Source of the DNA: Longimicrobiales bacterium
GTDB lineage: Bacteria; Gemmatimonadota; Gemmatimonadetes; Longimicrobiales; RSA9
Direction of reading: 5' to 3'
NCBI GenBank assembly: GCA_035461765.1
Contig: DATHUY010000056.1
Span: 1-46,745, forward strand
DNA: 46,745 bases
Part shown: piece after piece, positions 13,190-46,276 of the stretch
Layout of the letters: every line of letters starts with the position of its first letter
Position numbering within the stretch: position 1 is the first letter of the stretch
Position numbers and translations under genes: made by a program
Notes under the pieces: generated by a model
Told to the model about the DNA's origin: nothing
Database searches by the model: none
What the model saw: only the letters and a program-made list of their open reading frames with translations

Positions 13190-14089
13190 TCACCGCGACA
13201 GTGCCTGAGCCAGGCGCACGATCGTCGCGAACCGACCCTCGCCCAGATCGGACCAGGTGAATCGCAGGACGCGGTAACCGGCCGCGGTCAACTCCGCGTC
13301 GCGCCTGCGGTCCGCACCGAACGAATGGGCCGAGGCGTGAAATGCGTACCCGTCGACCTCGACGATCACGCGCGCGTCCCGCCACACGAAATCGACTTCG
13401 TGGCCGAGGACCTGGACGTTCAGTTCCGGGCGCGGGAGTCCGGCCTTCTGTGTGAGCGCGAGCAGATTCTCCGCCCGGGAGCGGGTGAACGGCGGCGCAT
13501 CGTGTTCCGCCAGAAGTCGCCGCCACAGCGGGGCTCCCCGGTGGGTCGGATGTCGCTCCACCATGGCGCGCATCTCATCGGAAGTAACGAGCCGCTTGCG
13601 CAATGAAGTGGCATACGCCTGCTCGACCACGCGGCCCGTTTCCGTTTCCGCGAGGTCGAGGAGCGTGCGCGCCGGCGTGGTGACCGGAATGCCATCCAGC
13701 ACCGCGACTTCATCCGCTCGGAGATCGCGCACCCGGTGGATCCGGACTCCATCGATCTGACGACGCCTGCGCCGCGGCATTGTCACCTCCACTGTGTCGA
13801 CATGACGATCGTTCTCGACGATGCCCGCGAGGCGTGCCGCGCTCAGATGACTGGCGCGCGCGTCACAGCCGCCGGCGAGGACTGCCGCCTTCTCGGCCGA
13901 TCGCGGGAGCGGGAGCGGACCGATCTGGTAGACGCCGCGCTGCACGACCACGAGCCGCCGGACGCGCACCAGCCGATCCACGGTATGCACGGAGAGGCCG
14001 CGGTCGATCAGCTGCGCGCGCGCTACGACACCGTGCTGTGCAGTGCCCAGGTCGCGGAGGATGAGCTCGGTGTCACGGCGCGTCGCCAT
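13190..14089 (-). CDS. AbiEi-like N-terminal domain fused to DUF559 endonuclease-like domain
   Basis: 299 residues. The N-terminal part (LDLGTA-type winged helix, RGVYQIGPLPL, then a middle domain with VTTPARTLLDLAE) resembles the AbiEi antitoxin / type IV TA family regulator. The C-terminal ~90 residues (ELNVQVLGHEVDFVWRDARV, then IVEVDGYAFH and YRVLRFTW) match DUF559, a Vsr-like PD-(D/E)XK fold. Such fusions are common in high-GC bacteria and often stand alone; no AbiEii nucleotidyltransferase partner is present. Whether it cleaves DNA is unknown. Its first codons (MATRRDT) lie inside the sequence shared by arrays 2 and 3. Confidence 0.8.
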   Translation of the reverse strand: MATRRDTELILRDLGTAQHGVVARAQLIDRGLSVHTVDRLVRVRRLVVVQRGVYQIGPLPLPRSAEKAAVLAGGCDARASHLSAARLAGIVENDRHVDTVEVTMPRRRRRQIDGVRIHRVRDLRADEVAVLDGIPVTTPARTLLDLAETETGRVVEQAYATSLRKRLVTSDEMRAMVERHPTHRGAPLWRRLLAEHDAPPFTRSRAENLLALTQKAGLPRPELNVQVLGHEVDFVWRDARVIVEVDGYAFHASAHSFGADRRRDAELTAAGYRVLRFTWSDLGEGRFATIVRLAQALSR

Positions 14090-14290
14090 CCTGCCTTCCC
14101 CACGTCAATCGTAACCCACCCGCGCCCAGGTCGAGCGCGGTGATGCTATCACGGCGTCTGGCGCTGTCGAATGGTGCCCGCGCCGCGATTTCGTCGCCAC
14201 GGGGCAAGCCCGACGTCGCTCCGCGACGTGAATCGTGCTCCGCCCGGCTCCCGCAGAGACCTGGGGCACGTCCGACGTATCGCGGGACCG
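14070..14290. repeat. Hairpin-repeat array 2 (62-bp period), upstream of the DUF559 gene
   Basis: Three degenerate units: the GTCAATCG / GTCGAATGG / GTGAATCG positions fall at about 14104, 14166 and 14229, spaced 62-63 bp. The best hairpin is ACGTCGC-TCC-GCGACGT at about 14214-14230, flanked by GGGGCAAG and the CTCCG/GCCCC side. The whole block is nearly the same as 15965-16185. It overlaps the first ~20 bp of the DUF559 gene. Confidence 0.75.
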
Positions 14291-14508: not shown

Positions 14509-15903
14509 TCAGCGTACGCGCACGCCACCCTTCATGACGAAGACGACGTCGCGCAGCGCGTGCACGTCCCGGCCGGGATCGCCGCTCACGGCGACGAGGT
14601 CGGCGAGCAGCCCGGCGCGGATCCGGCCGCGATCGGCGAGGCCGAAGATGTCGGCATTGCCGGCTGTCATGCCGCGTACGACGGCGAGCGGCGACATGCC
14701 GTAATCGACGAGCAGCTCTGCCTCGAGGGCATTCTCACCGTGCGAGAACACGCCGGCATCGCCGCCGACGCAGATCGTCGTGCCGGCATCGAGCGCAGCG
14801 CGCACGCTCGCGCGCTTGGCCGCAACGCGCGCCGGTTCGGGATCGACGTCAGGGCGCCAGCCTCCGTAACGCGAGATCGACCAGCCCGCCGCCACGGTCG
14901 GACAGAGCGCCACACCACGCTCGGCCATTTGCCGGAACACGGCGGGAGTGCCGCCATCACCGTGCTCGATGGTCGCGACGCCGGCGGCGATCGCCCGGCT
15001 CATGCCCTCCGCCGTGCTCGCGTGCGCCACGACTCGCCGGCCGGACGACGCCGCCGCTTCCACGATCCGCTCCAGCTCCGCCTGCGTGAACGTCGGGCGG
15101 GCTTCACCGTCCGGCCCCCAGCGATAATCGGCGTACACCTTGATCCAGTCTGCGCCGTGGCCGATCTGGTCGCGCACCACCTTCAGGAGCGACTCGCCGT
15201 CCGCCTCCTCCGCACCCTGCGGCACCGTGAACTCCGGCGCAAATCCCCTCGGTCCATAGCTGCCGGTCGCTACGATCGCACGCCCGCTCGTGATGACGCG
15301 CGGACCGCGTATCGCGCCCTTGTCGATAGCCGTGCGCAGACCCACGTCGGCGTAGCCGGCGCCCTCCGTCCCGAGATCACGAACGGTCGTGAAGCCTGCG
15401 TCGAGCGTGGCGCCCGCATGCATGACGGCCCGCGCGACGCGTTCCGCATACGACTCGCGCAGCACCTGGTCGTTCCAGCTCGTCTCGTCGTAAGGATGCA
15501 GCAGCAGATGGGAGTGGCCCTCGATGAAGCCGGGCAGCAGCGTGGCACCGGGGAGGTCGATGGCGACGGCGCCGGCCGATGCGACGTCGCGCTCCGCGCC
15601 GACCGCCGCGATGCGCTCGCCGCGGACGAGCACGACCCAGCCCTCGTGGCGGTCCTGCCCGTCGAACACCGCCGCAGGCCGCAACACATACGTCGTGTCC
15701 TGCGCCGCAAGCGCCGCCGGCGCGAGCAGCAGTGCGGCCGGAGCGAGCCGTAGTGCGGCTGCGGCCGGTGCGAGCCGGAGTGCGGCCGCGGCGGGAGCGA
15801 GCAGCAGTCCCGCCGCAGCGAGCCGCAGTGCTGCCACGATCGAGCGCCAGTGCATTCGCGCTGCCCCCGCGGCCATCGTTCGCGGCGATTCCATCCCGGT
15901 CAT
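14509..15903 (-). CDS. Secreted amidohydrolase-superfamily metal-dependent hydrolase (imidazolonepropionase/prolidase-like)
   Basis: 464 residues from ATG 15903. A long signal peptide has a repetitive hydrophobic core (repeats of ALRLAPAAA) ending near LAAQD. The amidohydrolase barrel follows: LPGFIEGHSHLLLH (metal-binding HxH), FTTVRDLGTEG, DWIKVYADYRWGPDG (metal Lys), VVAHASTAEGM, TIEHGDG and VGGDAGVF (final Asp region). This is the secreted imidazolonepropionase-like group whose better-known members cut Xaa-Pro or cyclic amides. The frame is open to 15987, where it would start MATRPDT, but that stretch belongs to array 3 and lacks signal-peptide character. Codon-level repeats in the signal region are unusual. 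Confidence 0.88.
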   Translation of the reverse strand: MTGMESPRTMAAGAARMHWRSIVAALRLAAAGLLLAPAAAALRLAPAAAALRLAPAALLLAPAALAAQDTTYVLRPAAVFDGQDRHEGWVVLVRGERIAAVGAERDVASAGAVAIDLPGATLLPGFIEGHSHLLLHPYDETSWNDQVLRESYAERVARAVMHAGATLDAGFTTVRDLGTEGAGYADVGLRTAIDKGAIRGPRVITSGRAIVATGSYGPRGFAPEFTVPQGAEEADGESLLKVVRDQIGHGADWIKVYADYRWGPDGEARPTFTQAELERIVEAAASSGRRVVAHASTAEGMSRAIAAGVATIEHGDGGTPAVFRQMAERGVALCPTVAAGWSISRYGGWRPDVDPEPARVAAKRASVRAALDAGTTICVGGDAGVFSHGENALEAELLVDYGMSPLAVVRGMTAGNADIFGLADRGRIRAGLLADLVAVSGDPGRDVHALRDVVFVMKGGVRVR

Positions 15904-15964
15904 GCGATTCCCCCTGTCATGGAGCACGTCGGCATCGGGGCCAAAGATAGGGGTTCCGGAGGGC

Positions 15965-16190
15965 CCTGTGTCAGGTCGCGTCGCCATGCTGCCTGCGCGA
16001 CGTCAATCCTGCCCCGCCTGCGCTCAGATCCGGCGCGGTGACAGCATGACGTCGTATGTCGCTGTCGAATGGTGCCCGCGCCGCGATTCTGGCGCCTCGG
16101 GGTAGGTCGGACGTCGCTCCGCGACGTGAATCGCGCTCCGGCCGGACGACAGCGCGCCCTGGGGCGCATCCGACGTATCTCCGACCGGCT
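15965..16190. repeat. Hairpin-repeat array 3 (62-bp period), near-duplicate of array 2
   Basis: Conserved positions (GTCAATCCTGCCCC at ~16001, GTCGAATGGTGCCCG at ~16064, GTGAATCGCGCTCCG at ~16127) are spaced about 62 bp. The central hairpin ACGTCGC-TCC-GCGACGT is at ~16111-16127. Long identical stretches shared with array 2 include CGCGTCGCCAT, GCTGTCGAATGGTGCCCGCG and the hairpin. It lies just upstream of the minus-strand amidohydrolase and downstream of the small gene at 16275. The rest of the 15904-16274 gap holds no gene I can support. Confidence 0.78.
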
Positions 16191-16724: not shown

Positions 16725-17552
16725 CTACACGATGCCTTCGCGCAGTGCGCGGCTGACGGCTTCGGCCACGCTGTGCACCTGGAGCTTCGAGTATACGCTG
16801 CGGATGTGGCTGCGTACGGTATCGAGGCTGATGTCGAGCTGCTGCGCGGTGCGCTTGTAGGACATGCCCTGCACGAGGCAGCGGAGCACATCGAGCTCGC
16901 GCTCGGTGAGCTCGAACGAGCCGGCGCGCGCGGCGCCGTTGCCGGGCACGGGCGGGCCGAGGCGGCGGACCAGGTCCAGCACGGTGCGGGCGACGCCGGC
17001 CGAAATCGGTGCGCCGCCCTGGGCGATCGCGCGCAGCTGCGACAGCAGCTCGGCCGCCGTGGTGCGCTTGAGGAGGTAGCCGTCGGCGCCGGCGCAGATC
17101 GCCTCCACGATGGTCGCGCGCTCCTCGAACACGGTGAGCACGACCACCGCTGTGTTCGGCCTGCGCTGCTTGATCTGGCGCGTGCATGCGATGCCGTTCA
17201 TGCCCGGGAGATCGATGTCCATCAGCACCAGATCCCAGCCGGCCGCCGCAGCGCCCGCCGTGCCGGACACTGCACCGCCGCCGTCCGGCTGCCCTGCGGA
17301 CGCAGTACCGCGCCCGCTGTCCGACTGCCTTGCGGGCGCAGTACCGCCCCCGCCGTCCGGTTGCGCCGCGGACACCGGCTGCGCATCCGCGCCGTCGAGC
17401 GCCGCCAGTGCGGCTGCGGGCGAGCCGAAGCTGGCCACGAGCTCGAAATCGCCGGTGCGCCGGAAGAGCAGTTCCAGGCTGGACCGGTACTGCGGGTCGT
17501 CCTCGATGGTGACGACGCGGATCGACGATGTATGCCTTTCGTTCTGAGCCAT
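16725..17552 (-). CDS. NarL/FixJ-type response regulator with interrupted receiver domain
   Basis: 275 residues. Receiver residues: acidic pocket EDD (17-19), phosphoacceptor Asp112 in LVLMDIDLPG, Thr140 and Lys162 (LLKR). The LuxR-type HTH covers ~212-275 (ELTERELDVLRCLVQGMSYK, then SLDTVRSHIRSVYSKLQVHS). Residues ~55-104, between helix 2 and strand 3, form a low-complexity Gly/Ala/Gln-rich insertion (repeated QPDGGG / GTA) coded by degenerate ~36-bp DNA repeats; ordinary receivers have no such segment. The start lies 3 bp after the sensor kinase stop, so the two are one operon and very probably a cognate pair. Likely target: its own operon or the neighbouring haloperoxidase-like gene (inference). 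Confidence 0.9.
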   Translation of the reverse strand: MAQNERHTSSIRVVTIEDDPQYRSSLELLFRRTGDFELVASFGSPAAALAALDGADAQPVSAAQPDGGGGTAPARQSDSGRGTASAGQPDGGGAVSGTAGAAAAGWDLVLMDIDLPGMNGIACTRQIKQRRPNTAVVVLTVFEERATIVEAICAGADGYLLKRTTAAELLSQLRAIAQGGAPISAGVARTVLDLVRRLGPPVPGNGAARAGSFELTERELDVLRCLVQGMSYKRTAQQLDISLDTVRSHIRSVYSKLQVHSVAEAVSRALREGIV

Positions 17553-17555
17553 CCA

Positions 17556-20500
17556 CTAACGATGCACAGGCCGCGCGACGGACGCACCCGCATGTTCATG
17601 CGGGTCAGTGTGCGACGCAGCAGGGCGCACCCGCCCGTGGAGCAGCCAGTGGGCGAGGCGGTTGCGCGCGGGCCAGGGATCGAAGCGCAGGCGCACTTCG
17701 GTGCCGGACCGCGCGGGTGTGCGCCAGGAGATCTCGCCGCCGATCTCGTCGGCGCGCCGGCGCATGCCGCGCAGTCCGCGACCCGACCCGCGCGGCGCGG
17801 TGTTCTCCGTCATCCCGATCCCGTCGTCGCATACGGTGAGCAGCCAGGCCGCTCCGTCGGGTTGCAGTGACAGGGTCACGTGACGGGCGCAGGCATGTCG
17901 GGCGGCGTTGTGAAGCGCCTCGAGGCCGATCAGCAGCACGTTCCGCAGGACGGGCAGCGGCAGCGGGTCGGCGGGCCAGTGTCCGGGAAACGAGGTGTCG
18001 AGCTGGACATCGTCGGCGAACAGGCGGCTCCCGTTTTCGGCCATGCGGGCGGCGAGTACATCGAGTGTCGCGCTCTGCGGATCGAGCGACCAGACGATGT
18101 CGGAGAGTGCGGTGCCCAGCTCCTCGGCCGTAGCGGCGACCTCGCGCGCGATCTCGTTGCCGCTGCCGGAATGGGAGGACAGGACGTCGGCGAGGATGCC
18201 GATACTGGCGAGGCCGGAACCCATCTCGTCGTGCAGGTCGAGCGCGATGCGGGTGCGTTGCCGTTCGAGCCCGAGGAGATACGCGATGCGGGCGCGATAG
18301 ATCGCGAACAGCAACGCGGCACCGAGCAGCAGGAACGCGGAGATCGCCCATGCCGTGCGGTACCACGGGGGCAGCACACGGAACGCGACGCCGGCGGGTA
18401 CGGGCGACCATTGTTCGCCGTCGAGCGAGGCGCGTACCTCCGGCTGATGACGACCGGGCGGGAGGTCGACCCAGTTGAAGAACGGCTGGCCATCGGTATC
18501 GGCCCATGGCTCGTCGGGCGACAGCCGCACCTGGTAACGGATTCGCCCGGGATCACGGAAGGACAGGGCAGCGAAGCGCAGCTCGAGGCGGTTCCGGTCG
18601 GCCGGCAGCACCATGGGCTCGCGCAGCGGCACCCGGCGCCCGTCCACGCGGGCTTCGACAACGGCCATGGCGGGCGGCTGCGGATGGGCGAGCCGGACCT
18701 CCGCCGGGACCAGGATCACACCCTCGGCCGTCGTGATCCACAGCGTGCCGTCCTCCTCCTCCAGCAGGTCGCCGCCGCCGACAGTGGGCAGGCCATGCCA
18801 GGCGCCGAGCCGCTCCAGCACTTCCCAGCCCTCATCTTCTTCCTCCTCCTCGACACGGATCACCATGCCGGTGCCGACCAGCCAGGTGCCGCCCCGCGGT
18901 GACGGCACGAGGTTCAGCACGGAACGGGTGGGCAGATCGCGGTTGCCCGGGAGTGGCTCCCAGCCGGCCGCCGTATGGTGCATGACGCCGAGGCGGCTGT
19001 TCGCCGCCCAGATCGCGCCGCTCGGCATCTCCGCGAATGCGTTCAGATGCACCGCGCCGGGTGGCAGCCGTTCGCACGACCACGCCGCTACGCGGTCCGC
19101 GAGCACATCCGCGGCAGCGGCGTGGCAGGCCTGCTCGCGGTTGCCGATCCAGAGCCTTCCGGTCCGGTCCTCGAGCACGGCCTCGACCACGGTGTCGCCG
19201 GACAGGTAGGGCGCGTTTTCGATGTGCCTGATCCGGCGGCCATCGCCGCTCATGTGGTGGAGTCCGGCATGTGACGAGATCCAGAAACCCCCGTCGGATG
19301 CCGGTCGGCACGAGCCGATCTCCAGATCGGTGCCGCTGTTGACGAGGCGCGCCTCCCGACCGCGCAGATGTCGGAGGCCATCGGCGGACGACATCCACAC
19401 CCCGCCCGCGCCGTCGGCGCACGGCTGACCGCGTGCGAACCAGTCTCTCAGCGTGCCGGCCTGCCAGCTGCCGTCGTTCCGCTCGAGGAACCCCGTTCCG
19501 CGCCAGGTGGTGACCCACACGACGTCGCCCGTCCGTGCGACAAATCGGGTATGCGCCGATGGCAGGCCGTGCCGCTCCTCCCATACCCGGGTGCCGGGCT
19601 CCGGATAGTGCGACACGACCGTGAACCCGGCGTGCCAGAGGCTGCCCTCACGGTCGATGAGCAGCGGTCCGCCGCCGGCCACACCGTGCGTCGGTCCCAG
19701 CACCTCCGCGGTGCCGGACCGGTCCAGCGCGATGAGGTCGCGGTCGGTCGCCATCCAGATCGTGCCGGCCCGGTCGGCCAGCGAGATCGCACGCGACATC
19801 GGGATGTCCGCGTCCTGCGTCAGAACGCGAGTCCTGCCGTCCGGCCGGATCTCGAAGACCAGCCGACCGGAGGAGAGAACCAGAATGCGCCCGTCCGGCA
19901 GCGCCGTGGCGTCCACGATGAGAGCGGTCGTTTCGAGAAGGGGTTCCCCGGGGGCCTGTCCCGTCACGCGCCACAGCCCCGCGCGCCCCGCGACCAGAAC
20001 GCCGCCGCCCGGACCGCCTGCAAGCACCTTCCGCACCGTGTCGACCTGCAGCTGCGCGGGCGACCGCGCGTGCCACTCGCCCCGATCGTCCAGCCACGCC
20101 AGCCCACCATCGAGCGTGGCGACCCATAGCCGGCCGCCTTCGTCGAACGCCGCGACCTGCGTGTGATCGGGCGAGCGCAGTGCCGCGCCCGGCAGCTCAC
20201 GCGCACCCGCCGGCGTCAACTCCACGATCCGGCCGCTCGCATCCACCACGACCACTCGCTCCGGCGAAATCGCGATGGAGCCGACCGCGTTCGGCAGCAC
20301 ATCGGCCGCCCACCGCTGGAACTGATGACCGTCATAGCGGAAGAGTCCGGCGCGCGATCCGGCCCACAGAAAGCCGACACTGTCCTGCGCCAGCGCCACC
20401 ACCGACGGCTGCAGCCCGGCCTCGCCGCCATACCGGCGCACCAGCCGGTCCTGCGCTTCCAGCGGGGCGGGCGCCGCGAAACACGTGAACACCGCCAGGG

Positions 20501-20573
20501 CGAGAAGTACGCGGGCAGGCGCGGTCAGCGTCGGATTCGTGGCGGGCGACGGTCGAAACGTGCGGCGGATCAT
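17556..20573 (-). CDS. Two-component sensor kinase with periplasmic beta-propeller (Reg_prop/Y_Y_Y) domain
   Basis: 1005 residues. Signal peptide (LLALAVFTCFAAPAPLEAQ), then about 600 residues of propeller repeats (GFLWAGSRAGLFRYDG, GTIWMATDRDLIALDRSG, GRLWIGNREQ), a Y_Y_Y-like Ig domain (~620-720), one TM segment (TAWAISAFLLLGAALLFAIY), a HisKA_3 dimerisation domain with phospho-His H781 (LDLHDEMGSGL) and a HATPase domain (DDGIGM, GRGLRGMRRRADEIGG). No fused receiver, so it needs the separate regulator next door. The ATG overlaps the TetR stop (ATGA), giving direct coupling. An acidic run (VEEEEEDEGWEV) interrupts one propeller repeat. Relatives sense extracellular carbohydrates in Bacteroidota; the ligand here is unknown. 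Confidence 0.92.
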   Translation of the reverse strand: MIRRTFRPSPATNPTLTAPARVLLALAVFTCFAAPAPLEAQDRLVRRYGGEAGLQPSVVALAQDSVGFLWAGSRAGLFRYDGHQFQRWAADVLPNAVGSIAISPERVVVVDASGRIVELTPAGARELPGAALRSPDHTQVAAFDEGGRLWVATLDGGLAWLDDRGEWHARSPAQLQVDTVRKVLAGGPGGGVLVAGRAGLWRVTGQAPGEPLLETTALIVDATALPDGRILVLSSGRLVFEIRPDGRTRVLTQDADIPMSRAISLADRAGTIWMATDRDLIALDRSGTAEVLGPTHGVAGGGPLLIDREGSLWHAGFTVVSHYPEPGTRVWEERHGLPSAHTRFVARTGDVVWVTTWRGTGFLERNDGSWQAGTLRDWFARGQPCADGAGGVWMSSADGLRHLRGREARLVNSGTDLEIGSCRPASDGGFWISSHAGLHHMSGDGRRIRHIENAPYLSGDTVVEAVLEDRTGRLWIGNREQACHAAAADVLADRVAAWSCERLPPGAVHLNAFAEMPSGAIWAANSRLGVMHHTAAGWEPLPGNRDLPTRSVLNLVPSPRGGTWLVGTGMVIRVEEEEEDEGWEVLERLGAWHGLPTVGGGDLLEEEDGTLWITTAEGVILVPAEVRLAHPQPPAMAVVEARVDGRRVPLREPMVLPADRNRLELRFAALSFRDPGRIRYQVRLSPDEPWADTDGQPFFNWVDLPPGRHQPEVRASLDGEQWSPVPAGVAFRVLPPWYRTAWAISAFLLLGAALLFAIYRARIAYLLGLERQRTRIALDLHDEMGSGLASIGILADVLSSHSGSGNEIAREVAATAEELGTALSDIVWSLDPQSATLDVLAARMAENGSRLFADDVQLDTSFPGHWPADPLPLPVLRNVLLIGLEALHNAARHACARHVTLSLQPDGAAWLLTVCDDGIGMTENTAPRGSGRGLRGMRRRADEIGGEISWRTPARSGTEVRLRFDPWPARNRLAHWLLHGRVRPAASHTDPHEHAGASVARPVHR

Positions 20574-21205
20574 GATCGGAACGCGGCGTGATCCAGGATC
20601 CGATCGACCGCCCGCCGGCCACGCTCCAGCACCGCGGGATCCCGGAACAATACGAAGTGGTAGTTCGCCAGCTCCATGCACGCGTACAGCTCGAAGACCA
20701 GCTGCTCCACGTCCGCGTCCGCGTCGAGCTCCCCGAGTCGCTGCGCGCCGGCCACGTACTCCCGGAACTCCGCCAGCCACGCCCGCTCCACATCCAGCAC
20801 TTTCTCATGCACGGACCCCGGACGCGCGTCCATCTCCGCCAGCAGTGACCCGAAGAAACACCCGCCGGGAAAGACCCACCGCTCCAGGTACGAAAAATAG
20901 GCCGCCACCATCGCCTCGAGGCGCGGCAGGCCTTCGCGCACCTCGTGCGCCGGCGCGATGACCTCCCGCCCGAACACCTCGAGCGCCGCGTCGATCGTCT
21001 CCAGCTGGAGCTGCTCCTTGGATCCGAAATGCGCGTACAGCCCGCTCTTGCTCACCCCCAGCTCGGCCGCCAGCCGGCCGAGGGTCAGCCCCTCGATTCC
21101 CTCCACGGACGCCAGCCGCATGGCGGCGTCGAGGATCGCCGCGCGCGTGCGTTCGCCGTCGCTGCGCTGCTTGCGCGGTCGTGGTGCAGCGGGCTGGGTC
21201 GTCAT
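20570..21205 (-). CDS. TetR/AcrR family transcriptional regulator
   Basis: 211 residues from ATG 21205 (a TTG nine bases upstream is possible). The N-terminal HTH is typical: RAAILDAAMRLASVEGIEGL, LGRLAAELGVSKSGLYAHFG, SKEQL. The ligand-binding part (VFPGGCFFGSLLAEMDARPG, FELYACMELANYHFVLFRD) matches the TetR_C_6-type group. Its stop overlaps the sensor kinase start by ATGA, an uncommon arrangement of a one-component repressor leading a two-component system. A perfect 11-bp-arm palindrome sits 36 bp upstream, in the divergent gap with the haloperoxidase-like gene, and probably serves as its operator for both directions. Confidence 0.92.
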   Translation of the reverse strand: MTTQPAAPRPRKQRSDGERTRAAILDAAMRLASVEGIEGLTLGRLAAELGVSKSGLYAHFGSKEQLQLETIDAALEVFGREVIAPAHEVREGLPRLEAMVAAYFSYLERWVFPGGCFFGSLLAEMDARPGSVHEKVLDVERAWLAEFREYVAGAQRLGELDADADVEQLVFELYACMELANYHFVLFRDPAVLERGRRAVDRILDHAAFRS

Positions 21206-21240
21206 GGTTGACAAAGATAAGGGGTCGCATGCACTCTACA

Positions 21241-21266
21241 AATTAGCACGAACGGTCGTGCTAATT
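21241..21266. promoter_or_regulatory. TetR-type operator palindrome
   Basis: AATTAGCACGA-ACGG-TCGTGCTAATT: 11-base perfect arms around a 4-base centre. Size and the CACGA..TCGTG core fit TetR-family operators. It lies between the divergent TetR operon and the haloperoxidase-like gene, ending 4 bp before the AGGAGG of the latter, so bound repressor would block that gene. Confidence 0.85.
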
Positions 21267-21282
21267 CAACAGGAGGCGACTC

Positions 21283-22725
21283 ATGTCCATTCTCCCCCGC
21301 GCTGCCACTGCCTCATGCACCCTCCTTGCCCTCACCTTCACCCTCGATCCTGCGCTGCCGCGACACAGCGGCGCTGCTGCCCAGGAGCCTGCTGACCTGC
21401 CGCGCGTCGGCCCCGGTGTGGATGCACGCGTCGTGGTCGCATGGAATGAGCTGGCGCACGCGATCGCGTACGAGGAGGACCAGTTCCTGACGTTCAAGGG
21501 CCAGCGTGCGCTGGCGATGATGAACCTCGCGATGCACGACGCGCTGAACACGATCGCGCCGGTCTATGAGCGCTATGCGTACGATGGTGCGGTGGACGGC
21601 GGAGTGGGAGCGGCGTTCGCGAGCGAAGCGGGGCGCGCGACCGAAGCGGCGTCCGCGAGCGAAGCTGAGTCCGCGGGCGAAGCGATGTCCGCGGGCGGCG
21701 CGACAGGCCTTGCGGATTACGCGGAAGGGGCCGCTGCGCGGGCTGCGTACGAGGTCCTGCGTTCGCAGTATCCAAGCGCGCGAGCGCGACTGGACTCGCT
21801 GTGGTCGGCACTGCACGGCGCGCCGGCGCCCGCGCAGCAGGCAGCGAGTATTGCGCTCGGTACGGCGGCCGCGGAAGCGGTTCTGCGGTCGCGCGACGGT
21901 GATGGGTGGGACGGCGCCGGCTCGTACCAGTTCGATGCGGGGCCGGGCCGGTATCAGACGACACCCGACTGGGACGGTTTCGTGCTTCAGCCGGGCTTTC
22001 GAGCGGCGCGGCCGTTTGCGATCGAGTCCGTTGTCGCGTTCCGGCCGCCGCCGCCGCCCGCAGTCACGGACGAGCGATATGCGCGCGACTACGACGAAGT
22101 GAAGGCATACGGCGCGGCCGGGAGCCCTGTCCGGACGGCGGATCAGACGGCGTACGCGATCTGGTGGATGGAGTTTGCGGAGGGGTCGGTGAACCGCCTC
22201 GCGCGGCGACTGGTGATGGACCAGGACGTGGGCCTGTGGGAGGCGGCGCGACTGTTCGCGCACATGCACATGGCGCTGTTCGACGGCTACATCGTGAACT
22301 GGGACTCGAAGTACGAATACGACCACTGGCGTCCGTACACCGCGATCCGCGCTGCGGCGGATGATGGCAACAATGCGACATCGCCGGTCCCCGACTGGCA
22401 GTCGCTCCGGCCGGCTCCGCCGTTCCCGGAATATGCATCCGCCCATGCGACCGGATGCGCGGCGGCGTTCACGGTGCTCGCATCCGCGCTCGATGAGGCA
22501 CCGTTCACGATGACGACCATGACGGCGCCGGAGGGAATGCCGGAGCGCTCGTTTCCGGATTTCGCTGCGGCGGCGCGCGAATGTGCCGATTCGCGGGTTC
22601 AGCTCGGCTGGCACTTCAGGTACTCGACGGACGCGGGCCTGGACACGGGCGAGCGGGTGGCGACTCACGTGCTGAAGACGAAGCTCCGGCCGGTTGCATC
22701 CGCACCGCACGATGCCGCAGAATGA
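21283..22725 (+). CDS. Vanadium-dependent haloperoxidase / PAP2-superfamily secreted enzyme
   Basis: 480 residues with a signal peptide (SCTLLALTFTLDPALPRHSG region). All three motifs of the vanadate/phosphate pocket are present: KX6RP as KYEYDHWRP (K343, R350), the PSGH-equivalent as EYASAHAT (H388), and SRX5H as SRVQLGWH (R438, H444). It may oxidise halides with H2O2 or act as an acid phosphatase; sequence alone does not decide. Residues ~105-142 are an Ala/Glu/Ser low-complexity insertion coded by repeats of GCGAGCGAAGC. The start is fixed by AGGAGG six bases before ATG. The TetR palindrome immediately upstream implies repression by the divergent TetR. Confidence 0.88.
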   Translation: MSILPRAATASCTLLALTFTLDPALPRHSGAAAQEPADLPRVGPGVDARVVVAWNELAHAIAYEEDQFLTFKGQRALAMMNLAMHDALNTIAPVYERYAYDGAVDGGVGAAFASEAGRATEAASASEAESAGEAMSAGGATGLADYAEGAAARAAYEVLRSQYPSARARLDSLWSALHGAPAPAQQAASIALGTAAAEAVLRSRDGDGWDGAGSYQFDAGPGRYQTTPDWDGFVLQPGFRAARPFAIESVVAFRPPPPPAVTDERYARDYDEVKAYGAAGSPVRTADQTAYAIWWMEFAEGSVNRLARRLVMDQDVGLWEAARLFAHMHMALFDGYIVNWDSKYEYDHWRPYTAIRAAADDGNNATSPVPDWQSLRPAPPFPEYASAHATGCAAAFTVLASALDEAPFTMTTMTAPEGMPERSFPDFAAAARECADSRVQLGWHFRYSTDAGLDTGERVATHVLKTKLRPVASAPHDAAE

Positions 22726-22729
22726 GTTC

Positions 22730-22957
22730 ATGGCGAAGAAGAAGAATCGGACGAAGCGGCAGGGAAGTGCGTCACGCGAAGCCGGCACGACGCGCCGGAA
22801 GAAGAAGCGCGGCCTGCTGAGCGGGCCGTCGCTGGTCTTCATCGGGCTGCTCCTGCTCGCCGCTGTGGCGATTGCGATCATGTCGGTAATGGACGGGACG
22901 CGGCCGGAGTGTCCGCCGGGACAGGTGTGGTCGGACGCGCACAACCACTGCCACTGA
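22730..22957 (+). CDS. Small basic single-TM protein with CX(n)C tail
   Basis: 75 residues from ATG 22730, 4 bp after the haloperoxidase-like stop, so co-transcribed. The N-terminal ~30 residues are strongly Lys/Arg-rich (MAKKKNRTKRQG...RRKKKR), then one TM helix (PSLVFIGLLLLAAVAIAIM) and a short tail PECPPGQVWSDAHNHCH with two Cys and three His, a possible metal or disulfide site. I do not recognise a family, though CPPGQVWSDxHxHCH-like tails occur in small proteins of this type. The 131-bp element A begins 3 bp after the stop. Confidence 0.7.
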   Translation: MAKKKNRTKRQGSASREAGTTRRKKKRGLLSGPSLVFIGLLLLAAVAIAIMSVMDGTRPECPPGQVWSDAHNHCH

Positions 22958-22960
22958 AGT

Positions 22961-23091
22961 CGGACGCGGAACCCACTCTGCAGAACGGCTCAGGTCCGCA
23001 TGGCCGTGCCGCGCCGGGACATGCCGGCCGACTATCCTGGTGACATGCGCATGTCCGGATGAGCCGTTCTGCAGAGTGGGTGCCGCGTCCG
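22961..23091. repeat. 131-bp inverted-repeat element, copy A
   Basis: Left arm 22961-22992 (starts CGGACGCGGAACCCACTCTG), right arm 23060-23091; the 32-base arms pair with a single mismatch. The 67-bp interior contains the perfect 14-bp palindrome GACATGCGCATGTC. It begins 3 bp after a stop codon. No target-site duplication is visible. Confidence 0.9.
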
Positions 23092-23139
23092 GGGTCCGGC
23101 GGGCCGCCAGGCGCCACCGCGTTCGGGTCCGGCGCCGCG

Positions 23140-28619: not shown

Positions 28620-28750
28620 CGGACGCGGAACCCACTCTGCAGAACGGCTCAGGCCCGCATGCCCATGGCGCTCCGGGACATTCGGCCTCGCCTTCCCGGG
28701 GACATGCGCATGCCTCCACAGGCCGTTCTGCAGAGTGGGTTCCGCGTCCG
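28620..28750. repeat. 131-bp inverted-repeat element, copy B
   Basis: The left arm 28620-28651 equals that of copy A; the right arm 28719-28750 pairs over its outer 29 bases and loses the last two pairs. The interior is in the same orientation as copy A (GCCCGCATG... GGGGACATGCGCATG). It sits 81 bp downstream of the Spy-like gene and upstream of the adaptor operon. The rest of 28468-28831 shows nothing I can name. Confidence 0.9.
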
Positions 28751-28831
28751 GCTGGGCGTGCCCGGCCACGGCTGGCGTTCACAGCCAGCGCTGGCATTAC
28801 CGGTCACACCTGGCGCCGGCCCTCCTTGCCG

Positions 28832-35444: not shown

Positions 35445-35575
35445 CGGACGCGGAACCCACTCTGCAGAACGGCTCAGGCACGCTCAGCCGTGGCGCGCAC
35501 AGACATGCAGGATCGCGCTTCCGGGGACGTGGGCATGCGCTATTGAGCCGTTCTGCAGAGTGGGTTCCGCGTCCG
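35445..35575. repeat. 131-bp inverted-repeat element, copy C
   Basis: Arms 35445-35476 and 35544-35575 are perfectly complementary over 32 bases. The interior is in the same orientation as copies A and B but more diverged. It fills the gap between two converging genes: 9 bp from the stop of the small + gene and 4 bp from the stop of the DUF4097 gene. Confidence 0.92.
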
Positions 35576-35579
35576 ACTG

Positions 35580-39707: not shown

Positions 39708-39838
39708 CGGACGCGGAACCCACTATGCAGAACGGCTCACCGGGGCATGCGCATGTCACCGGGAGCGCGGGGCCGCATGTCCCGGCGCGTCACGGCCGTG
39801 TGGGCCTGAGCCATTCTGCAGAGTGGGTTCCGCGTCCG
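39708..39838. repeat. 131-bp inverted-repeat element, copy D (reverse orientation)
   Basis: Arms 39708-39739 and 39807-39838 pair with two non-Watson-Crick positions. The interior is the reverse complement of the type in copy A (GGGCATGCGCATGTCACC at the left, GGCGCGTCACGGCCGTG at the right), so the element is inverted here. It starts 5 bp after the ADOP stop and overlaps the end of the converging amidohydrolase gene. Confidence 0.92.
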
Positions 39839-41525
39839 ACGCCGTCAGCCGCACGTCGTCGATCAGGATCCTGAACGAGCCCTCCGGTGATCCTGCATCG
39901 ATCGATATCGCGTGGACGGCTGATGGATCGAGGCCGTTGAACTGCTGCCAGTCGAAGCGGTACTCGCGCCAGTCCCGCCCGGCGGTGAAGCGCGCGGTGG
40001 CCGGTCCGTCCGGCGCATAGAGCGTGACTTCGTAAATCCTCCCATCACCGCTGGCGGCGAACGCGATGCCGGTCGCGTCGGCGATGCTGGCGACGTCGCC
40101 GGGAGATTCGGTGAACTGGAGCAACGCGCCGGCCCAGGCGATTCGAAGCCTGCCGGGCACGATCCGGCCGATGACCTCGAGCGCGTGCTCGCTGCCGTTG
40201 TGTCCACCACGCACGATGCGAATCTGCGCCGTGGATGCGCCACCGCGCCGCTGATCGCTCGACACGCGCCAGGGAATACCGAGTGATGAAACGAGCGTAC
40301 CCTCCTCGAAATCACTGATCAGGCCGGGCCCATGACGCTCGCGCGCCGCCTCCCGCTCGGCGAGCTCCGCACGCGCAGCGTCGTGCCACGGCTGATGGTC
40401 GAAGCGCACGCCACCCTTCCACACCCCGACGATCGCCCGGGTCGCGTCGATCGACGTCGTGGGATCTCCGTACACCAGGAGCAGGTCCGCGCGTGCACCC
40501 GGCCTGATGCGGCCGCGATCCGTGAGACGGAACGCATCGGCCGGGGCGGACGTCGCCGCCTTCAGCGCTTCCAGGGGCGCGAGACCGGCGTCGGTCAGCA
40601 GCACGAGCTCATCGTGGAGCGATGTGCCGAACGCAGTGCCGGGGTTGGGTGCGTCGCTGCCCGCGAGCAGCGGCACGCCCGCACGCGCGAGCGCGCGAAT
40701 CGCGGCGGACCCGCGGCCGCGCGTCACGGCAAGCGTCGGCACCACGAACACATCGCTTTCGCGCAGCCGCCCCGCGAGTGCGGCGTGATCCGCAGCATCG
40801 AGCCAGACGTGCATCAGCCCGTCCACTCCGGCGCTCACGGCACGTTCCGCCATCTCGACACTCATTGCGTGCGCCACGGCGAGCAGACCGCGCGCGTGGG
40901 CGGCGTGCACCACTGCAGCAATGGTGGCAGAATCGAGCGTCGGGATCTCGCGTCCGATCACCTGTCCATCTTCGACAATGATCTTGATCCATTCCGATCC
41001 TTCAGCCACGCGTGCGGCGACGAAGGTGTCCGCGTCCGCCGCGCTCGACAGCGTCGGGACGCTGAGGGCGTACTGAGTGCCGTGGCCGTCCGGCGCTGTT
41101 GCCACGATGCCGGCGGTCATGAGGGAGGCCCTGGTCGCGGCAGAGCTGGCGTCCTCTTCGCGCAGACTCCGGGCGATCGCGGGATCGCTGAACATGTCGA
41201 GGTGCATCGTGACGCCCCACGCCAGGGCTGCCGCGAGATCTTCGCGCGAACGCGTGTGCGTGTGCGCATCGATCAACCCCGGGAGCAGAGTGCGGCCCGA
41301 GCCTTCTACGACGGCTGCGTCCGCAGGGGTCTCGATGCCGCGGCCGAGGTTCGCGATCCGTCCGTCGCGTACGATGACGGTCGCCGAGTCGAGCACGCGC
41401 TCGCCGTCAAACACGCGAACATTGCGGAAGGCGGTCACCGCACCGGTTGGCGACTGCGCGCGCAACGGGTGCGGCGCGGCGCTGGCGACGGGCAGCAGCA
41501 GGATGATGGCAGTGATGAGTCGCAC
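39756..41525 (-). CDS. Secreted amidohydrolase fused to CIA30-like carbohydrate-binding domain
   Basis: 589 residues from GTG 41525 (GGAAGG 5 bases upstream), giving the signal peptide (M)RLITAIILLLPVASAAP. Amidohydrolase domain ~30-400: LPGLIDAHTHTR (H88, H90), EWIKIIVEDG (metal Lys region), LAVAHAMSVEMAE, LLAGSDAPNPG (Asp). Residues ~415-562 form a CIA30-type jelly-roll (ISDFEEGTLVSSLG, YRFDWQQFNGLDPSAVHAIS, SFRILIDDVRL), often a sugar-binding-like fold on secreted enzymes. The last ~26 residues (SDAEPTLQNGSG onward) are coded by the repeat element D, which also gives the stop codon. The frame continues upstream to 41642 without signal-peptide features. Confidence 0.88.
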   Translation of the reverse strand: MRLITAIILLLPVASAAPHPLRAQSPTGAVTAFRNVRVFDGERVLDSATVIVRDGRIANLGRGIETPADAAVVEGSGRTLLPGLIDAHTHTRSREDLAAALAWGVTMHLDMFSDPAIARSLREEDASSAATRASLMTAGIVATAPDGHGTQYALSVPTLSSAADADTFVAARVAEGSEWIKIIVEDGQVIGREIPTLDSATIAAVVHAAHARGLLAVAHAMSVEMAERAVSAGVDGLMHVWLDAADHAALAGRLRESDVFVVPTLAVTRGRGSAAIRALARAGVPLLAGSDAPNPGTAFGTSLHDELVLLTDAGLAPLEALKAATSAPADAFRLTDRGRIRPGARADLLLVYGDPTTSIDATRAIVGVWKGGVRFDHQPWHDAARAELAEREAARERHGPGLISDFEEGTLVSSLGIPWRVSSDQRRGGASTAQIRIVRGGHNGSEHALEVIGRIVPGRLRIAWAGALLQFTESPGDVASIADATGIAFAASGDGRIYEVTLYAPDGPATARFTAGRDWREYRFDWQQFNGLDPSAVHAISIDAGSPEGSFRILIDDVRLTASDAEPTLQNGSGPHGRDAPGHAAPRSR

Positions 41526-46082: not shown

Positions 46083-46213
46083 CGGACGCGGAACCCATTC
46101 TGCAGAATGGCCGGTCCTGACAGCTCAGATGGCTGTTCACCCATGGCAGGCGCCGCACGATCGGCCGCGCCCATGTTACCGCGAGCCATTCTGCAGAACG
46201 GGTTCCGCGTCCG
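46083..46213. repeat. 131-bp inverted-repeat element, copy E (most diverged)
   Basis: Same length and outer arms (CGGACGCGGAACCC...GGGTTCCGCGTCCG) as copies A-D. Inner arm changes are partly compensatory: AACGG/CCGTT became AATGG/CCATT. The left arm itself holds a perfect 16-bp palindrome, CCATTCTGCAGAATGG. The interior barely matches the other copies. It lies between the lipoprotein promoter region and the 180-bp inverted repeat. Confidence 0.85.
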
Positions 46214-46276
46214 AAGCAGCTCCGCACCCCGATTGATCGGACCCTGGGTGGTGGAAGGTCCGCCCCGACTGCCGAC

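Follow-up and report, generated by a model that had tools for sequence, protein, structure and literature searches.

A putative local TetR repressor beside a haloperoxidase-like gene and a two-component pair in a Longimicrobiales bacterium: probable neighbours rather than a conserved unit

Do a TetR-family repressor, a two-component pair and a divergent haloperoxidase-like gene that adjoin each other in a Longimicrobiales genome form one sensing system, or did they become neighbours by chance? Here we report an analysis of this locus in a window of 46,745 nucleotides (the whole stretch of DNA analysed; contig DATHUY010000056.1 of assembly GCA_035461765.1), with 395 genomes of the phylum as the comparison sample; the gene content points to Gemmatimonadota. 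We favour, with a probability of about 0.8, a local TetR repressor acting on the divergent enzyme gene, with an independent two-component cassette behind the TetR gene. Judged by sequence comparison, the genes that look like a merged sensing system are most likely neighbours by chance and not a conserved unit. The features are as follows.

16725 to 17552, minus strand: NarL-type response regulator, 275 aa, Response_reg and GerE domains (Pfam)
17556 to 20573, minus strand: sensor histidine kinase, 1005 aa, Reg_prop beta-propeller, HisKA_3 (H781) and HATPase_c domains (Pfam)
20570 to 21205, minus strand: TetR-family repressor gene, TetR_N and TetR_C_13 domains (Pfam, 2.9e-15 and 2.6e-32)
21241 to 21266, no strand: candidate TetR operator, near-palindrome AATTAGCACGA-ACGG-TCGTGCTAATT (arms, shuffles, core conservation)
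21283 to 22725, plus strand: vanadium-haloperoxidase/PAP2-like enzyme, 480 aa (PAP2 1.8e-5, below cut-off; 4cit 9.3e-24)
22733 to 22957, plus strand: small basic protein, 74 aa, one predicted membrane stretch (open reading frame)

The ATGA at 20573-20570 is common to the TetR stop and the kinase ATG, and 3 bp (17553-17555) lie between the kinase stop (17556-17558) and the regulator ATG (17552), as the sequence-only reading had described. Such an overlap and such a gap are ordinary bacterial gene spacing, and they carry little weight as evidence of a special system. A TTG at 21214 is an alternative start of the TetR gene. A consensus scan for sigma-70-like promoters found none, and its terminator-like matches were only at chance level. 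A short palindrome with 9-bp arms, ACCCGCATGTTCATGCGGGT, is present at 17586-17605, near the 3' end of the kinase gene and just before the regulator gene.

The domains proposed earlier for the four main proteins agree with Pfam, with the PAP2 match below its cut-off and a structural match to 4cit. Both the TetR_N helix-turn-helix and TetR_C_13 score above the Pfam cut-off and place the repressor in the TetR family; its nearest solved relative is 2hyj from Streptomyces (E 4.6e-41). The best NCBIfam match is the AcuR equivalog with 58.9 bits, far below the cut-off of 247, so the protein is not AcuR. The two-component proteins carry H781, the N-box, the G-box, the LVLMD motif and GerE, with intact catalytic residues.

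The PAP2 match of the enzyme reaches 25.0 bits against a Pfam cut-off of 27.2, and the nearest solved structures are vanadium haloperoxidases (4cit, E 9.3e-24). The site residues K343-x6-RP, S and H at 386-388 (SAH) and SR437-438...GWH are kept in homologues; they lie in the segments KYEYDHWRP (from 343), PEYASAHA (from 382) and SRVQLGWH (from 437), which were aligned with homologues and 4cit. The vanadate-binding residues of PAP2-type motifs (K, R, S, (G), R and two H) are thus present, with the Gly of SGH replaced by Ala. The enzyme shares K-x6-RP, S-x-H and SR-x4-GxH-type residues with vanadium-dependent haloperoxidase/PAP2-like enzymes (4cit from Zobellia; NapH), but its similarity to every one tested is low. 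Read from the residues, the site does not separate haloperoxidase from phosphatase, PAP2 phosphatases having the same site, and activity on halide, peroxide or phosphate esters is not separable by sequence. Its N-terminus suggests that the enzyme is probably exported. Residues about 107-137 form an in-frame low-complexity repeat that is absent in relatives, and two distant paralogues are encoded in the same genome, on contigs C34 (27525-28292; locus L002) and C75 (17068-17913; locus L003).

The closest enzyme relatives found belong to Vicinamibacteria (51%), Rhodothermia (45%) and Flavobacteriaceae (34-37%). Regulators near enzyme relatives are of the winged-helix/AAA (L019), HxlR (L020), AraC (L021) and BTAD (L107-L109) types, which suggests that the haloperoxidase-like gene may repeatedly have been placed beside a regulator, of no fixed kind. 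The small open reading frame begins 7 nt after the enzyme gene. Pfam and NCBIfam searches with its 74-aa product gave no match; weak matches in 10 relatives never adjoined a haloperoxidase match, and a role as haloperoxidase partner was rejected because these matches sit elsewhere.

The divergent gap of 77 bp holds what had been called a perfect 26-bp palindrome. It is a near-palindrome (21241-21266), symmetric at 24 of 26 positions, with arms AATTAGCACGA and TCGTGCTAATT that are exact over 11 bp around the centre ACGG. It is not a product of chance, since no arm longer than 8 bp arose in 3000 dinucleotide shuffles of the gap. On one side 35 nt separate the near-palindrome from the TetR ATG; on the other, 16 nt separate it from the enzyme ATG, and the AGGAGG of the enzyme gene immediately follows it. 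It is the sole site in the 4.68-Mb genome when up to 3 mismatches are allowed, so the TetR regulon looks local; a genome-wide regulon was rejected, there being no second site at this threshold.

Conservation of the site was read in the regions upstream of TetR homologues at 19 loci, the window among them. The core ACGAnCGnTCGT, which was picked after the sites had been looked at, occurs as 16 exact sites in 14 of these 19 regions, a few from loci of one genus, against 0.04 expected at the rate seen in the remainder of these loci, where 223,502 background positions hold 2 exact sites. The full 18-base motif performed unevenly, its spacing and outer bases being variable, and the core was used instead. 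The three closest TetR orthologues (53-55% identity) have an 18-bp palindrome with half-sites alike and a shorter spacing between them, and therefore fit the TetR of the window by half-site, not by exact site. A palindromic operator core before the gene is thus common to the TetR homologues, and the palindrome therefore travels with TetR and follows neither the enzyme nor the kinase. At the four TetR-homologue loci with Pfam annotation, the divergent gene encodes an alpha/beta hydrolase in three cases, an epimerase in one and a haloperoxidase in none; none of the relatives searched has this TetR facing a haloperoxidase.

The 77-bp divergent gap places the candidate operator 16 nt from the enzyme ATG, which argues for repression of the enzyme gene by TetR: a TetR regulator usually represses a divergent neighbour whose gene lies less than 200 bp away (PMC3511530). 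Together with the operator core upstream of homologues, this rule lends good support to the earlier proposal that TetR would control the divergent gap. The layout resembles that of other TetR_C_13 repressors divergent to an enzyme gene, which share the TetR_N and TetR_C_13 domains, a short divergent gap and a palindrome of 22-26 bp. It is also like that of AcuR from Rhodobacter sphaeroides, whose operator TAATAGAC-n6-GTCTATTA is a 22-bp palindrome (PMC3017554); acuR is co-transcribed with its targets, whereas the TetR gene of the window is divergent to the enzyme gene.

The two-component pair resembles NarL/UhpA-class systems, with the same Reg_prop sensor, HisKA_3/HATPase_c domains, an adjoining LuxR-type regulator and conservation as a pair; unlike these, the kinase gene overlaps a TetR gene and the regulator has a low-complexity insertion. 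The kinase has orthologues in 5 other genomes (47-63% identity), in which H781, the N-box and the G-box are conserved. In all four testable relatives, meaning those whose contig goes on beyond the kinase (L066, L067, L103, L104), the regulator follows the kinase and no TetR is present. Ahead of its phosphoacceptor Asp the regulator of the window has about 45-50 additional low-complexity residues that are missing from orthologues; the repeat is in-frame (about residues 58-105).

Within the genus, genome G001 is uninformative on the pair, since its contig stops inside the kinase gene and a regulator search at E <=1e-40 gave no match. An SSF symporter precedes its kinase, which aligns to the window at 69% DNA identity. 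The G001 block up to the symporter matches contig C108 of the window genome at 74-81% DNA identity, and that contig continues after the block with a different gene. With the symporter block on C108 and the kinase in the window, the upstream neighbour of the kinase has changed within one genus. This comparison indicates that the TetR-kinase junction is probably young.

Among the 395 genomes of the phylum, TetR homologues (E <=1e-20) occur in 19 others, kinase orthologues (1e-60) in 5 and enzyme relatives (1e-35) in 10, and a second carrier of the TetR-kinase-regulator-haloperoxidase set was not found. At these strict cut-offs the distributions overlap only in genome G041, where homologues of TetR and of the enzyme sit on separate contigs; at looser ones, G001 and G059 also have distant enzyme relatives, on contigs other than that of the kinase. 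Neither co-occurrence nor gene order is therefore conserved, and a merged conserved unit of TetR, kinase, regulator and enzyme was rejected on this distribution of its parts. The sequence-only reading had taken one- and two-component sensing to be merged next to a haloperoxidase; relatives of the enzyme, the kinase pair and TetR instead lie in different genomes or contigs. It had named two observations in relatives that would tell against it: an enzyme gene that lies elsewhere, which is largely what was found, and loss of the palindrome, which was not, the palindrome being conserved with TetR. A literature search found no paper on a TetR/two-component/haloperoxidase set.

Several other arrangements of control can be considered. 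TetR might repress its own operon including the kinase and regulator genes; the abundance of the two-component proteins would then depend on a cytoplasmic ligand, and the regulator would in turn act on the haloperoxidase gene. A single transcript is favoured by the ATGA overlap and the 3-bp gap, the operator lies upstream of the TetR, kinase and regulator genes as well as of the enzyme gene, and kinase and regulator both retain their catalytic residues; nevertheless, the arrangement is found in no other genome among the 395 of the phylum, the pair does without TetR elsewhere, two genomes of the same genus do not share the TetR-kinase junction and a binding site of the regulator was not identified, which makes this reading improbable. 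Slightly less probable still is a recent hybrid circuit, in which one transcript and translational coupling would make the two-component level ligand-dependent and both inputs would meet at the haloperoxidase promoter.

That TetR acts on itself and the kinase pair only, with the enzyme under its own control and the palindrome incidental to it, would agree with TetR homologues elsewhere being unlinked to haloperoxidase genes. We consider it very unlikely, because a dimer bound 16 nt before the enzyme ATG, ahead of the AGGAGG, would block transcription, and because TetR homologues typically face other enzymes in a like layout.

The preferred reading, a local repressor with an independent cassette behind it, can be sketched around what is directly seen: the gene order, the palindrome, the conservation of the operator with TetR and the independent distribution of the parts. 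A TetR dimer would bind the near-palindrome and repress both its own gene and the divergent enzyme gene with the small open reading frame behind it, and a small ligand would release it. The propeller kinase and the NarL-type regulator would be an independent cassette, placed behind TetR by a rearrangement in the lineage; the ATGA overlap probably puts both on the TetR transcript as a side effect of position. That TetR also sets their transcription is possible, with no support from conservation.

The window also contains a dispersed element of ~132 nt with inverted ends (CGGACGCGGAACCCACTCTGCAGAACGG...), REP- or MITE-like, at 22961-23092, 28620-28751, 35445-35576 and 39708-39839 and in part at 46168-46217; the copies match each other at 66-83% in direct register and at up to 87% when inverted. 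A 217-nt direct repeat (14065-14281 and 15963-16179; 79% identical) flanks an amidohydrolase gene (14509-15987) on both sides, and the N-terminus of the amidohydrolase has an in-frame low-complexity repeat, seen in the translation only.

This locus illustrates how closely packed and overlapping genes may look like a system for which comparison gives no support. Should the young TetR-kinase junction prove functional, it would offer a modest case of a circuit formed through rearrangement. For a TetR_C_13 group, the analysis offers a phylum-wide operator motif, ACGAnCGnTCGT within TAG-ACGA half-sites, which is useful for regulon prediction.
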